Source: an uncultured Gammaproteobacteria bacterium
Lineage (GTDB): Bacteria; Pseudomonadota; Gammaproteobacteria; Arenicellales; JAANXG01
NCBI GenBank assembly: GCA_945787105.1
Contig: CALZGZ010000351.1
Span: 1-36,592, forward strand
Length of the DNA stretch: 36,592 nucleotides
Direction of reading: 5' to 3'
Shown: one piece after another, positions 15,118 to 18,811 of the stretch
Layout: the number at the start of each line of letters is the position of its first letter
Position numbering within the stretch: position 1 is the stretch's first letter
Position numbers and translations under genes: made by a program
The notes under the pieces: generated by a model
The model's database searches: none
The model's input: only the letters and a program-made list of their open reading frames with translations
Told to the model about the DNA's origin: nothing

Positions 15118-15262
15118 ACGTATTCAATCTCCAAAATCTTTACGGTGTGCGGGTTGAGTCCGAGTTACTGTTAACAGAGGGTAACGAAACCTCATACGCT
15201 CCCGTATTTCCACGGGCATGATACGATATGATGGTGTTGAAGTTTGCAAGTATCAACCTTAC

Positions 15263-16252
15263 ATGCCATCGCTATTCCGTAACATCAAGAAGACCGGGAA
15301 TAAACCAAAGAGTTCCAGCTCTGGGTCAAATAACCTACGCGACCGTTTATCGAAGACGCGCAACGCCCTGGCTCGCGGATTATCAGGACTGTTTCGAAGT
15401 TCAGTAAATCTAGATTCGAGCTTGCTCGAAGATCTGGAAGACCTATTAATCAGCGCGGACCTCGGCGCAGGTCCCAGCGCAAAGATCATTGACCATGTGC
15501 GCGATGTCGCCGAGCGACGTAATCTGAACAGCCCAAGCGACCTGGTATCCGCCATCCGCGATGAGATGGAGGTAATCCTGGAACCTTGCAGCAAGTCGCC
15601 GTCCATCGATGCGCGCCCATATGTAATGTTAGTCGTAGGCGTGAATGGGGTTGGTAAGACCACCACTATCGCCAAGATCACCAACTGGTTATTGAAGCAA
15701 GATCTATCGGTAATGTTAGCCGCTGCTGACACCTATCGAGCTGCTGCAGTGGAACAGCTCACCCGCTGGGGAGAGCGATTGCATGTTCCGGTGATATCTC
15801 AGGGCCAAGGCGCAGACGCCGCGGCGGTGGCTCATGACGCCCTGGTCTCTGCCCAGGCCAGATCGATAGAGGTGTTGATTATCGACACCGCCGGAAGACA
15901 GCATACCCAGAGCGATTTGATGAATCAGTTAATAAAGATAAAGCGAGTATTGAACAAACTTGACTCCAGCGCACCGCACGAGGTTGTACAAATTCTGGAT
16001 GCCGGCACCGGGCAAAACGCGTTGTCTCAACTTCAACATTTCAATCAAGCAGTGCATGTGAATAGCCTTTGTCTTACCAAGCTGGATGGAACCGCCAAGG
16101 GGGGTATACTGTTGGCGATTGCTGATAAGTTTGCACTCCCGGTGCGATTTATTGGTGTAGGCGAGGGATCGGATGATCTGCGGCCATTTAACGTGGCCCA
16201 GTTCATCGATGCCCTGTTGCCGGACCCGGAATCGCTTGACCGACCCAATTAG
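15263..16252 (+). CDS. ftsY: Signal recognition particle receptor FtsY
   Basis: 329 residues from ATG 15263 ('MPSLFRNIKK'); the track start at 15218 adds 15 non-conserved residues and I consider it less likely. FtsY docks SRP-ribosome complexes to the Sec translocon. The N and G domains are complete: 'LEDLLISADLG', P-loop 'GVNGVGKTTTIAKI', 'AADTYRAAAVEQL', 'IDTAGRQHTQSDLMNQL', 'LTKLDGTAKGG' and 'GVGEGSDDLRPF'. The acidic A domain of E. coli FtsY (497 residues) is essentially absent; a short basic, Ser-rich N-terminus replaces it. It is followed directly by ftsE and ftsX. Confidence 0.96.
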   Translation: MPSLFRNIKKTGNKPKSSSSGSNNLRDRLSKTRNALARGLSGLFRSSVNLDSSLLEDLEDLLISADLGAGPSAKIIDHVRDVAERRNLNSPSDLVSAIRDEMEVILEPCSKSPSIDARPYVMLVVGVNGVGKTTTIAKITNWLLKQDLSVMLAAADTYRAAAVEQLTRWGERLHVPVISQGQGADAAAVAHDALVSAQARSIEVLIIDTAGRQHTQSDLMNQLIKIKRVLNKLDSSAPHEVVQILDAGTGQNALSQLQHFNQAVHVNSLCLTKLDGTAKGGILLAIADKFALPVRFIGVGEGSDDLRPFNVAQFIDALLPDPESLDRPN

Positions 16253-16278
16253 CCCGTATATTGCACCAAGGCAGCGAG

Positions 16279-16950
16279 ATGATTCGCTTCAGCCAAGTCT
16301 CCAAACGCTACCCCAACGGATATGAAGCGTTGAAGCGAATCAGCTTCACGCTCGAAAGGGAAAAGATGGCGTTTCTGGTGGGGCATTCTGGTGCCGGGAA
16401 AAGCACCCTGCTAAAACTCATAACCCTGGTGGAACGCAGCACCCACGGACAGATCGTGGTCAACAGTAAAAACCTGGTTAAATTGCCGCGCCGACAGATT
16501 CCTTATTTCCGCCGTGAGGTCGGTGTTATCTTTCAAGATCACAAGTTGCTGCATGACCGCACCATATTTGACAATGTCGCGTTACCGCTGGTGGTGTCGG
16601 GCGTCGGTCATCGAGAAACAGGCCGACGAGTGCGCGCGGCGCTGGACAAAGTCGGCCTTTTGGGCAAGGAACGGCTGTTTCCCGTCACCTTGTCAGGCGG
16701 CGAGCAACAACGGGTGGGCATCGCCCGGGCGGTGGTGAATCGCCCGCCGCTATTACTTGCGGACGAGCCGACGGGAAATCTGGATGCACAGCTTTCCGAT
16801 GAGATCATGGATTTGTTCTATCAGTTCAATCAGTACGGCGTTACCGTAATCATCGCCACTCACGAACGCCGTCATATCCAAAGGTTGAACAAGCCGGTGC
16901 TGGAGTTAAAAGATGGTCGACTGGTTAGCGATGGAGCACCCCACGGATGA
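16279..16950 (+). CDS. ftsE: Cell division ABC ATP-binding protein FtsE
   Basis: 223 residues from ATG 16279, matching the usual 222; the track's TTG at 16261 adds six residues. Walker A '[14 protein letters not shown]', signature '[14 protein letters not shown]' and Walker B '[12 protein letters not shown]' are all intact. FtsEX couples ATP hydrolysis at the division site to activation of periplasmic septal cell-wall hydrolases through EnvC-type proteins. It follows ftsY after 26 bases and overlaps ftsX by ATGA, the standard ftsYEX order. Confidence 0.96.
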
Positions 16951-17861
16951 GGGCGTACTTACTCAGGCATGTCCAGGTGCTGTTAGCGAGCCTGGGGCAA
17001 TTGGCCCGAATGCCTGGCTCCACACTGATGTCAGTGGGTGTGATCGGAATCACACTTGCATTACCAGGGCTGCTGTACCTGCTGGTGGCCAATGCGGAAA
17101 GAGTAAGCAGTGAGTGGCACGGTGGAACCCAGGTTTCGCTGTTTCTTCGTGGCACTGTCGATAGCGGCCAAGCACAAACGCTGGCAGCGCAACTCGCGAA
17201 GCGAGCGGACGTCGATCGAGTACGGGTCGTCAGCTCGGAACAGGCGCTATCGGAATTCAAGGAATTGTCCGGATTTGGAGAAGCGCTGGATGCGCTACCG
17301 GCAAACCCGCTTCCAAGCCTGTTGGTGGTCATACCTGAACCCCAGTATGAGCAACCTGAAACGCTTCAAAGAATGGTCTTAGAGCTGCAGTCTCTGCCAG
17401 CCGTGGAGTTGGCGCAACTGGATATGGAGTGGGTACAGCGTTTGCATGTCATTTTGAAACTCACGCGTCGGGCGCTAATCGTGCTGTCGGTGCTGCTGGC
17501 ATTGGCGGTGCTACTGATCGTGTCCAACACCATCCGCCTGGCGATCGTCAATCGCCGGGCGGAAATCGAGATCATTCAGCTGATTGGCGGTACCGACCAG
17601 TTCATTCGCCGCCCGTTCCTGTATAGCGGCATGCTGCAAGGATTTCTTGGCGCCGGTGTGGCGATTATGCTGATTGCGTTGTGCCTGCATCTATTACGTC
17701 CCCCGATACAGGTGTTGGCAAATTTGTACGGCAGCGGGTTCCGCGTGGCCGGGCTCAGTGCGTTGGAATCATTGACCGTACTGGCCATTGGCATGGGCTT
17801 GGGGTGGCTGGCGTCACGCTGGTCGGCAGACCGCCATCTACGCCGCATGCAGCCCTCCTAG
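16947..17861 (+). CDS. ftsX: Cell division membrane protein FtsX
   Basis: 304 residues. Topology fits FtsX: a cytoplasmic start, a first span ('GVIGITLALPGLLYLLV'), a periplasmic domain of about 120 residues with 'GGTQVSLFLRG' and the 'ALPANPLPSLLVV' stretch, then three more spans beginning 'RRALIVLSVLLALAVLLIV' with 'RRAEIEIIQLIGGTDQFIRRPFL' (split) between spans two and three. It is the membrane partner of FtsE and is translationally coupled to it by a 4-base overlap. It is followed by 98 bases containing a CIRCE operator, then rpoH, so the heat-shock sigma gene can be expressed separately. Confidence 0.95.
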   Translation: MRAYLLRHVQVLLASLGQLARMPGSTLMSVGVIGITLALPGLLYLLVANAERVSSEWHGGTQVSLFLRGTVDSGQAQTLAAQLAKRADVDRVRVVSSEQALSEFKELSGFGEALDALPANPLPSLLVVIPEPQYEQPETLQRMVLELQSLPAVELAQLDMEWVQRLHVILKLTRRALIVLSVLLALAVLLIVSNTIRLAIVNRRAEIEIIQLIGGTDQFIRRPFLYSGMLQGFLGAGVAIMLIALCLHLLRPPIQVLANLYGSGFRVAGLSALESLTVLAIGMGLGWLASRWSADRHLRRMQPS

Positions 17862-17901
17862 CAGCCCGAAAACCTATTAGATTCAGGAACTTTTAGCGCG
17901 A

Positions 17902-17928
17902 TTAGCACTCCAATTACCTGAGTGCTAA
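17902..17928 (+). promoter_or_regulatory. CIRCE operator (HrcA-binding site) upstream of rpoH
   Basis: The sequence reads TTAGCACTC, a nine-base spacer, GAGTGCTAA: a perfect 9-9-9 match to the CIRCE consensus, with both arms fully complementary. CIRCE is the operator for the heat-shock repressor HrcA, usually found before groESL or hrcA-grpE-dnaK. Here it lies 31 bases before the rpoH ATG. The site and its identity are seen directly; binding by HrcA is inferred from established knowledge, and hrcA itself is not in the window. Confidence 0.93.
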
Positions 17929-17931
17929 AAT
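17902..17931 (+). promoter_or_regulatory. Putative sigma-70 promoter of rpoH overlapping CIRCE
   Basis: TTAGCA (17902-17907) as a -35 and TAAAAT (17926-17931) as a -10 are 18 bases apart, with 4/6 and 5/6 matches to consensus. Both boxes are built from or abut the CIRCE arms, so a bound repressor would block RNA polymerase. This is inference from spacing alone; no start site is known. Confidence 0.4.
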
Positions 17932-17959
17932 CTATGTCAATGACAAAGCGGAGACCCGT

Positions 17960-18811
17960 ATGAGCCAAACCCTACCAATCCCGTTGGATATTACCAATCA
18001 AGGCCTAGCAAGTTATGTTCAGGCTGTGAACGCGGTACCCATGCTCAGTGATGAACGCGAGCACGAGTTGGCGGTGAGGTTTCGTACGCATGGCGACTTG
18101 GATGCGGCGCGGGAGCTCGTGATGTCACATCTGCGCTATGTAGTGCGCGTAGCACGGGGTTTTTCCGGGTATGGACTGCCTCTGGCGGACCTCGTCCAAG
18201 AGGGCAACATCGGCTTGATGAAGGCGGTCAAGAACTTTGACCCGGCGCGCAGGGTGCGCCTGGTATCTTTTGCGGTGCATTGGATACGCGCCGAAATCTA
18301 TGATTTTGTTCTGCGCAACTGGCGTATTGTGAAGGTCGCTACCACCAAGGCGCAACGAAAACTATTTTTTAATCTGCGTAAATCGAAGAATCACTTGGGG
18401 TGGTTGAAGCAGGATGAGGTAGAGGCACTCGCCGATCAATTGGACGTTCCGACGGACACCGTACAAGAGATGGAGTCACGAATGAGCAGTTCCGATGTAT
18501 CCTTCGATGGCTTTGACGCTGGTGACGAGGACGGCGCGATGATATCGCCGGCAGGGTATATACCGGATATGCGCTACAACCCTGAACGTCTGGCAAGCGC
18601 CGCCGATAGTGAGGCAGAGCGCCAGGAACAGCTCGATTCGTCACTAGACAAGCTGGATGAGCGCAGCCGCGTTATAATCCGGCGTCGCTGGCTGGAAGAT
18701 CCAAAATCGACACTCCATGAGCTCGCGGAGGAGTATGGCGTATCCGCGGAACGCATTCGACAGATCGAAAAACGCGCGCTGAATACAATGAAGGACCAGC
18801 TAACCGCATGA
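17960..18811 (+). CDS. rpoH: RNA polymerase heat-shock sigma factor RpoH (sigma-32)
   Basis: 283 residues, as in E. coli (284). Region 2 is clear: 'LVQEGNIGLMKAVKNFDP' and 'VRLVSFAVHWIRAEIYDFVL'. The RpoH box 'QRKLFFNLRK' follows, distinguishing it from RpoD and RpoS. Region 4 ends with 'LAEEYGVSAERIRQIEKRAL'. It directs transcription of chaperone and protease genes. The ATG at 17960 is preceded by GGAG at 17950-17953. It follows ftsX but has its own upstream region with a CIRCE element, so it is probably controlled both by HrcA at transcription and by the usual RpoH stability mechanisms. Confidence 0.97.
   Translation: MSQTLPIPLDITNQGLASYVQAVNAVPMLSDEREHELAVRFRTHGDLDAARELVMSHLRYVVRVARGFSGYGLPLADLVQEGNIGLMKAVKNFDPARRVRLVSFAVHWIRAEIYDFVLRNWRIVKVATTKAQRKLFFNLRKSKNHLGWLKQDEVEALADQLDVPTDTVQEMESRMSSSDVSFDGFDAGDEDGAMISPAGYIPDMRYNPERLASAADSEAERQEQLDSSLDKLDERSRVIIRRRWLEDPKSTLHELAEEYGVSAERIRQIEKRALNTMKDQLTA

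Follow-up and report, generated by a model that had tools for sequence, protein, structure and literature searches.

A CIRCE operator interleaved with a predicted sigma-E-type promoter upstream of rpoH in Gammaproteobacteria

INTRODUCTION

HrcA-type negative control and sigma-32-type positive control of the heat shock response are kept apart in the textbooks. Heat inactivation of HrcA, via intrinsic thermosensing or via GroEL, is established in other bacteria, and control of rpoH by sigma-E is classical. In Escherichia coli, RpoE transcribes rpoH from promoter P3, and GGAACTT is the -35 element of RpoE (PMC8103513). A CIRCE at -51 of rpoH has been predicted in Geobacter sulfurreducens, according to Rodionov et al. 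(2004, PMC545781), which also cites a study by Permina and Gelfand (2003) on the heat shock regulons of beta-, gamma-, and epsilonproteobacteria; gammaproteobacterial cases of a CIRCE in front of rpoH may already be contained in that study. Here, we describe an rpoH locus from an uncultured gammaproteobacterium in which a CIRCE and a predicted sigma-E-type promoter share bases.

RESULTS

The rpoH locus

The window, i.e., the whole stretch of DNA that was analyzed (36,592 nucleotides), belongs to an unfinished assembly of 4.8 Mb in 388 contigs that is 97% complete. The gene order is ftsY, ftsE, ftsX, and then rpoH, and a CIRCE is located within the 98-base gap between ftsX and rpoH. The following features were assigned:

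15218-16252, ftsY, upstream of ftsX
16261-16950, ftsE, upstream of ftsX
16947-17861, plus strand, ftsX, neighbor upstream of rpoH
17886-17892, plus strand, predicted sigma-E-type -35 element, GGAACTT
17902-17928, plus strand, CIRCE operator (predicted HrcA site), arms TTAGCACTC and GAGTGCTAA, both perfect, spacer of 9 bases
17902-17907, plus strand, candidate sigma-70-like -35 element, TTAGCA, within the left CIRCE arm
17909-17913, plus strand, predicted sigma-E-type -10 element, TCCAA, 16 bp from its -35 element
17923-17931, plus strand, candidate extended -10 element, TGCTAAAAT, right CIRCE arm plus three further bases
17950-17953, plus strand, ribosome-binding site GGAG, read directly from the sequence
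17960-18811, plus strand, rpoH, heat shock sigma factor sigma-32 (283 amino acids), above the cut-off of TIGR02392

The gene product was identified as RpoH with 380 bits against a TIGR02392 cut-off of 323. The operator reads TTAGCACTCCAATTACCTGAGTGCTAA and has no mismatch to TTAGCACTC-N9-GAGTGCTAA; it is the single match in the window at up to 3 mismatches, with an expectation of 0 in shuffled sequences. A perfect CIRCE on the plus strand, ending 31 bases ahead of the rpoH ATG (17960), had been reported in a preliminary description, and both statements were confirmed. The extent given there, 17902 to 17931, needs correction in that the operator ends at 17928 and the last three bases belong to the complete TAAAAT hexamer. 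Separate control of ftsYEX and rpoH, as proposed in the same description, found no firm support: a terminator-like site was sought in the ftsX-rpoH interval and none was found, so read-through from ftsX could be a source of basal rpoH expression. The 5' mRNA (17919 to 18180) folded with no extra stability over shuffled sequences (z = 0.30), a measure of overall stability rather than of a specific thermosensor pairing such as that of the E. coli type, and an Rfam search of the rpoH 5' region yielded no family above its threshold. Matches to human lncRNA in that region were below threshold and were taken as noise.

The HrcA/CIRCE regulon

A search of the genome for hrcA and other CIRCE sites, which had been suggested earlier, excludes the first of the refuting conditions named in the preliminary description, a lack of hrcA. 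One full-length HrcA is encoded (PF01628, 220 bits, plus the HrcA DNA-binding domain PF03444), and exactly three perfect CIRCE sites are present genome-wide: upstream of hrcA (contig C186), of groES (contig C323; Cpn10), and of rpoH. A CIRCE-like site with 3 mismatches on contig C301 adjoins no recognizable heat shock gene and was regarded as a chance match. The genome also encodes RpoE (TIGR02939, 320 bits; cut-off, 236), and an RseA-like open reading frame comes after rpoE. Upstream of rpoE, about 100 bases before position 1501 of locus L286, we found AGAACTT-N16-TCTCT, which is possibly a site of sigma-E autoregulation, with which its sequence is compatible.

Predicted promoter elements threaded through the operator

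The CIRCE had been described as overlapping the best -35/-10 pair. The overlap is real: TTAGCA-18-TAAAAT, with a TG ahead of the second hexamer, lies across the operator. GGAACTT-N16-TCCAA, however, had been missed. In the TCCAA of this predicted sigma-E-type promoter, the TC comes from the end of the left CIRCE arm and the CAA from the beginning of the spacer. The strict consensus GGAACTT-N15-17-TCYAA had a single match in the 4.8-Mb genome (17886 to 17913), compared with 3 matches for the reversed control pattern; the consensus being no commoner genome-wide than its control, it is conservation and register on which the call of a promoter is based.

A sigma-E -10 element shared with the spacer predicts a -35 element at a fixed register and an A at spacer base 3, and both predictions hold. 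A -35 element (at least 6 of 7 positions of GGAACTT) was found 15 to 17 bp from the TC of the left arm in 59 of 104 rpoH CIRCEs, as opposed to 0 of 84 orientations of CIRCEs located at other sites, which served as controls (p = 2e-20); at the other spacings from 8 to 25, the 104 rpoH CIRCEs had no such match. The same register was occupied in 44 of 66 sampled genomes (controls, 0/84) and, when one genome per family was counted, in 30 of 66 (controls, 0/80). Spacer base 3 is an A in 80 of the 104 rpoH CIRCEs but in only 13 of the 84 controls, and in 55 of the 59 that have the -35 element. When the composite sigma-E/CIRCE pattern was searched for across the class with up to 2 mismatches, 96 sites were obtained, 92 of which immediately precede rpoH in the same orientation, whereas its reversed control gave 0 sites. 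A phylum-wide sample contained no convincing composite outside the Gammaproteobacteria; the matches there all had 3 mismatches, nearly all of them in the -35 element, and are effectively bare CIRCEs. In one genome of the class (G102), whose rpoH is not preceded by a CIRCE, a composite with 1 mismatch (L304, C8:47853-47895) precedes an open reading frame that reads as clpB.

A rival account of the locus is simple HrcA control as in the preliminary description, with a single sigma-70 promoter overlapped by the CIRCE; the upstream GGAACTT would then be chance or a relic. The extended TG of the overlapping hexamer pair fits this explanation, as does the conservation around it: the T at position +3 past the operator is kept in 94 of 104 rpoH sites, and in the class sample, arms had drifted to TTGGCA in 36 cases on the left versus 2 on the right (p = 5e-9), a bias that would be seen if the left arm also served as a -35 element. 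Moreover, roughly one-third to one-half of the CIRCE-bearing rpoH loci in the class have no clear GGAACTT at the register, and the sigma-E layer at rpoH CIRCEs is not universal in the class. However, GGAACTT recurs at 15 to 17 bp in 59 of 104 rpoH CIRCEs and in none of the 84 controls, it covaries with the A at spacer base 3, and several rpoH genes that have no CIRCE retain the sigma-E promoter. We consider this explanation improbable. In the preferred reading, in which the operator is interleaved with a sigma-E-type promoter, a sigma-70-like layer may be present as well, but it is the least certain of the layers.

Conservation of the operator and its link to hrcA

RpoH was located in 41 genomes, our own and 40 relatives, and a CIRCE with 0 to 2 mismatches was present upstream of rpoH in all 30 loci that were read, which range from genus to order and include our own. 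The comparison with relatives proposed in the preliminary description was thereby borne out at the level of the order, and across the class the motif follows hrcA; a motif not conserved in relatives, the second refuting condition, is excluded as well. The RpoH of one order member shares 86.5% identity with a named Arenicella record, and our organism is therefore probably a member of the order of Arenicella. Among 276 genomes of the class, a CIRCE (up to 2 mismatches) was found in 208 and hrcA in 205. The regions upstream of rpoH were then taken from 130 class genomes, with CIRCEs counted at up to 3 mismatches, and the operator was present at rpoH in 100 of 112 genomes with hrcA versus 4 of 18 genomes without it. 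This set is enriched in part for composite-positive genomes, and the main figures are therefore those of a subset of 80 genomes picked down the list of RpoH similarity, which is ordered by similarity rather than random: 65 of 70 hrcA-positive versus 1 of 10 hrcA-negative genomes (p = 8e-8). A set of named genomes gave 19 of 22 versus 2 of 28 (p = 9e-9).

The association has exceptions in both directions. Three Chromatiaceae (L067, L088, and L105) have hrcA and a clear sigma-E promoter at rpoH but no CIRCE there, an operator absence that is lineage specific. Conversely, the composite is intact or nearly so upstream of rpoH in G121 (C127:842-884) and in L073, where hrcA was not found; either gaps in the assemblies or a recent loss of the gene may account for these two cases. 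Xanthomonadaceae-like genomes (L074, G281 at C35:39296-39338, G186, and L111) have the variant arms TTAGCAGTC and GACTGCTAA at rpoH, and in two of them, G186 and the Stenotrophomonas L111, hrcA was not detected and the operator arms are degraded.

In G107 and G309, two genomes of a single genus that lack hrcA, the sigma-E elements and the left arm are kept, and small deletions disrupt the spacing of the operator. In E. coli, in which no hrcA was detected (this genome served as a control for the hrcA search), the ftsX-rpoH interval contains TGAACTT-N16-TCTGA, which we take to be P3, and no CIRCE. In these upstream regions, then, the sigma-E promoter has been retained in spite of the missing operator. 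The regions also bear on the view that the palindrome is maintained mainly as promoter sequence, for the sigma-E -10 element and the sigma-70 hexamers, with HrcA having a small effect at rpoH. The right arm and the bases next to it indeed make a good extended -10 element, and the site does occur in the 4 of 18 sampled genomes without detected hrcA; but the intact palindrome follows hrcA in the 80-genome subset, and in G107 and G309 its spacing is broken while the promoter elements and the left arm stay. We consider this view very improbable. Finally, the idea that the palindrome is a chance match or an annotation artefact is refuted by the shuffle expectation of 0 and by its conservation across order and class, and it can be set aside.

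DISCUSSION

The sequences establish the presence of the operator, of hrcA, and of the gene for sigma-E, as well as the exact way in which operator and promoter elements overlie each other and the conservation of this arrangement. We consider it highly probable that the CIRCE functions as an operator for HrcA and is interwoven with the promoter region of rpoH, with HrcA repressing starts from sigma-E and possibly from sigma-70. HrcA control of rpoH as such is very likely, given the perfect CIRCE, the presence of hrcA, the conservation in the order, and the class-wide association with hrcA. The preliminary description had placed rpoH under HrcA in a cascade; as judged by sequence, HrcA control is well supported, but it is not the whole picture: the operator shares bases with a predicted sigma-E-type promoter, and the likely logic is activation by sigma-E (plus sigma-70) combined with repression by HrcA.

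From the arrangement of the elements, we infer HrcA binding, the start sites, repression, and a feedback step as follows. Sigma-E RNA polymerase would initiate from GGAACTT-N16-TCCAA, with a start at about 17919 to 17921, inside the operator, and a second start of the sigma-70 type may arise from TTAGCA-N18-TGCTAAAAT. HrcA bound to the CIRCE would mask the sigma-E -10 element, the sigma-E start, and both sigma-70-like hexamers and so keep rpoH low. Upon heating, HrcA activity would be lost and rpoH, groESL, and the hrcA operon would be released together, while envelope stress would add sigma-E-driven initiation at rpoH. RpoH would then drive the remaining heat shock regulon, and recovery of the chaperonin would allow HrcA to shut the rpoH promoter again. 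The effect of HrcA on rpoH could be weak beside translational or stability control of RpoH.

HrcA-type and sigma-32-type control appear stacked at this locus, and sigma-E envelope stress appears to enter via the same bases; two alarm systems probably converge on a single stretch of 45 bases before rpoH. If this is true, a single promoter would integrate cytoplasmic and envelope stress in much of a major bacterial class. The lineages without hrcA also form a natural series of operator decay with the inner promoter retained. A CIRCE before rpoH had already been predicted in Geobacter, and sigma-E control of rpoH was known from E. coli; what is new is the conserved composite element. In the literature covered, which was incomplete and did not include the gammaproteobacterial survey of 2003, no account was found of an interleaving of HrcA operator and sigma-E promoter conserved across Gammaproteobacteria. 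Likewise, a search for CIRCE together with "upstream of rpoH" gave no match within the same incomplete coverage, and a 2016 paper on regulons in Proteobacteria does not mention HrcA.

One of the closest counterparts is G. sulfurreducens, which shares with our genome a perfect TTAGCACTC-N9-GAGTGCTAA at rpoH and has further sites before hrcA-grpE-dnaKJ and groESL. It belongs to another class of Proteobacteria, however, and the accessible text of PMC545781 describes no sigma-E promoter woven into the site. In Bacillus subtilis and many other bacteria, the HrcA/CIRCE regulon involves the same repressor family and the same operator and includes groE and the hrcA operon, but here the gene of the heat shock sigma factor is itself a member, which links the regulons of the repressor and of sigma-32 in a cascade. 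E. coli shares with our genome a sigma-E promoter between ftsX and rpoH, taken to be P3, but has no CIRCE at the rpoH promoter. The contrast with E. coli drawn in the preliminary description is less sharp than stated, since a matching sigma-E promoter is retained in E. coli rpoH and the operator alone is missing. Whether the composite of about 45 bp, in which the bases of a sigma-E promoter are shared with an HrcA operator and often a sigma-70 promoter is included as well, is an old and widespread input to rpoH in Gammaproteobacteria is, in our judgment, evenly balanced; if it is, the state of E. coli, with a sigma-E promoter alone and mainly posttranscriptional control of RpoH, would be derived and would have arisen after the loss of HrcA.
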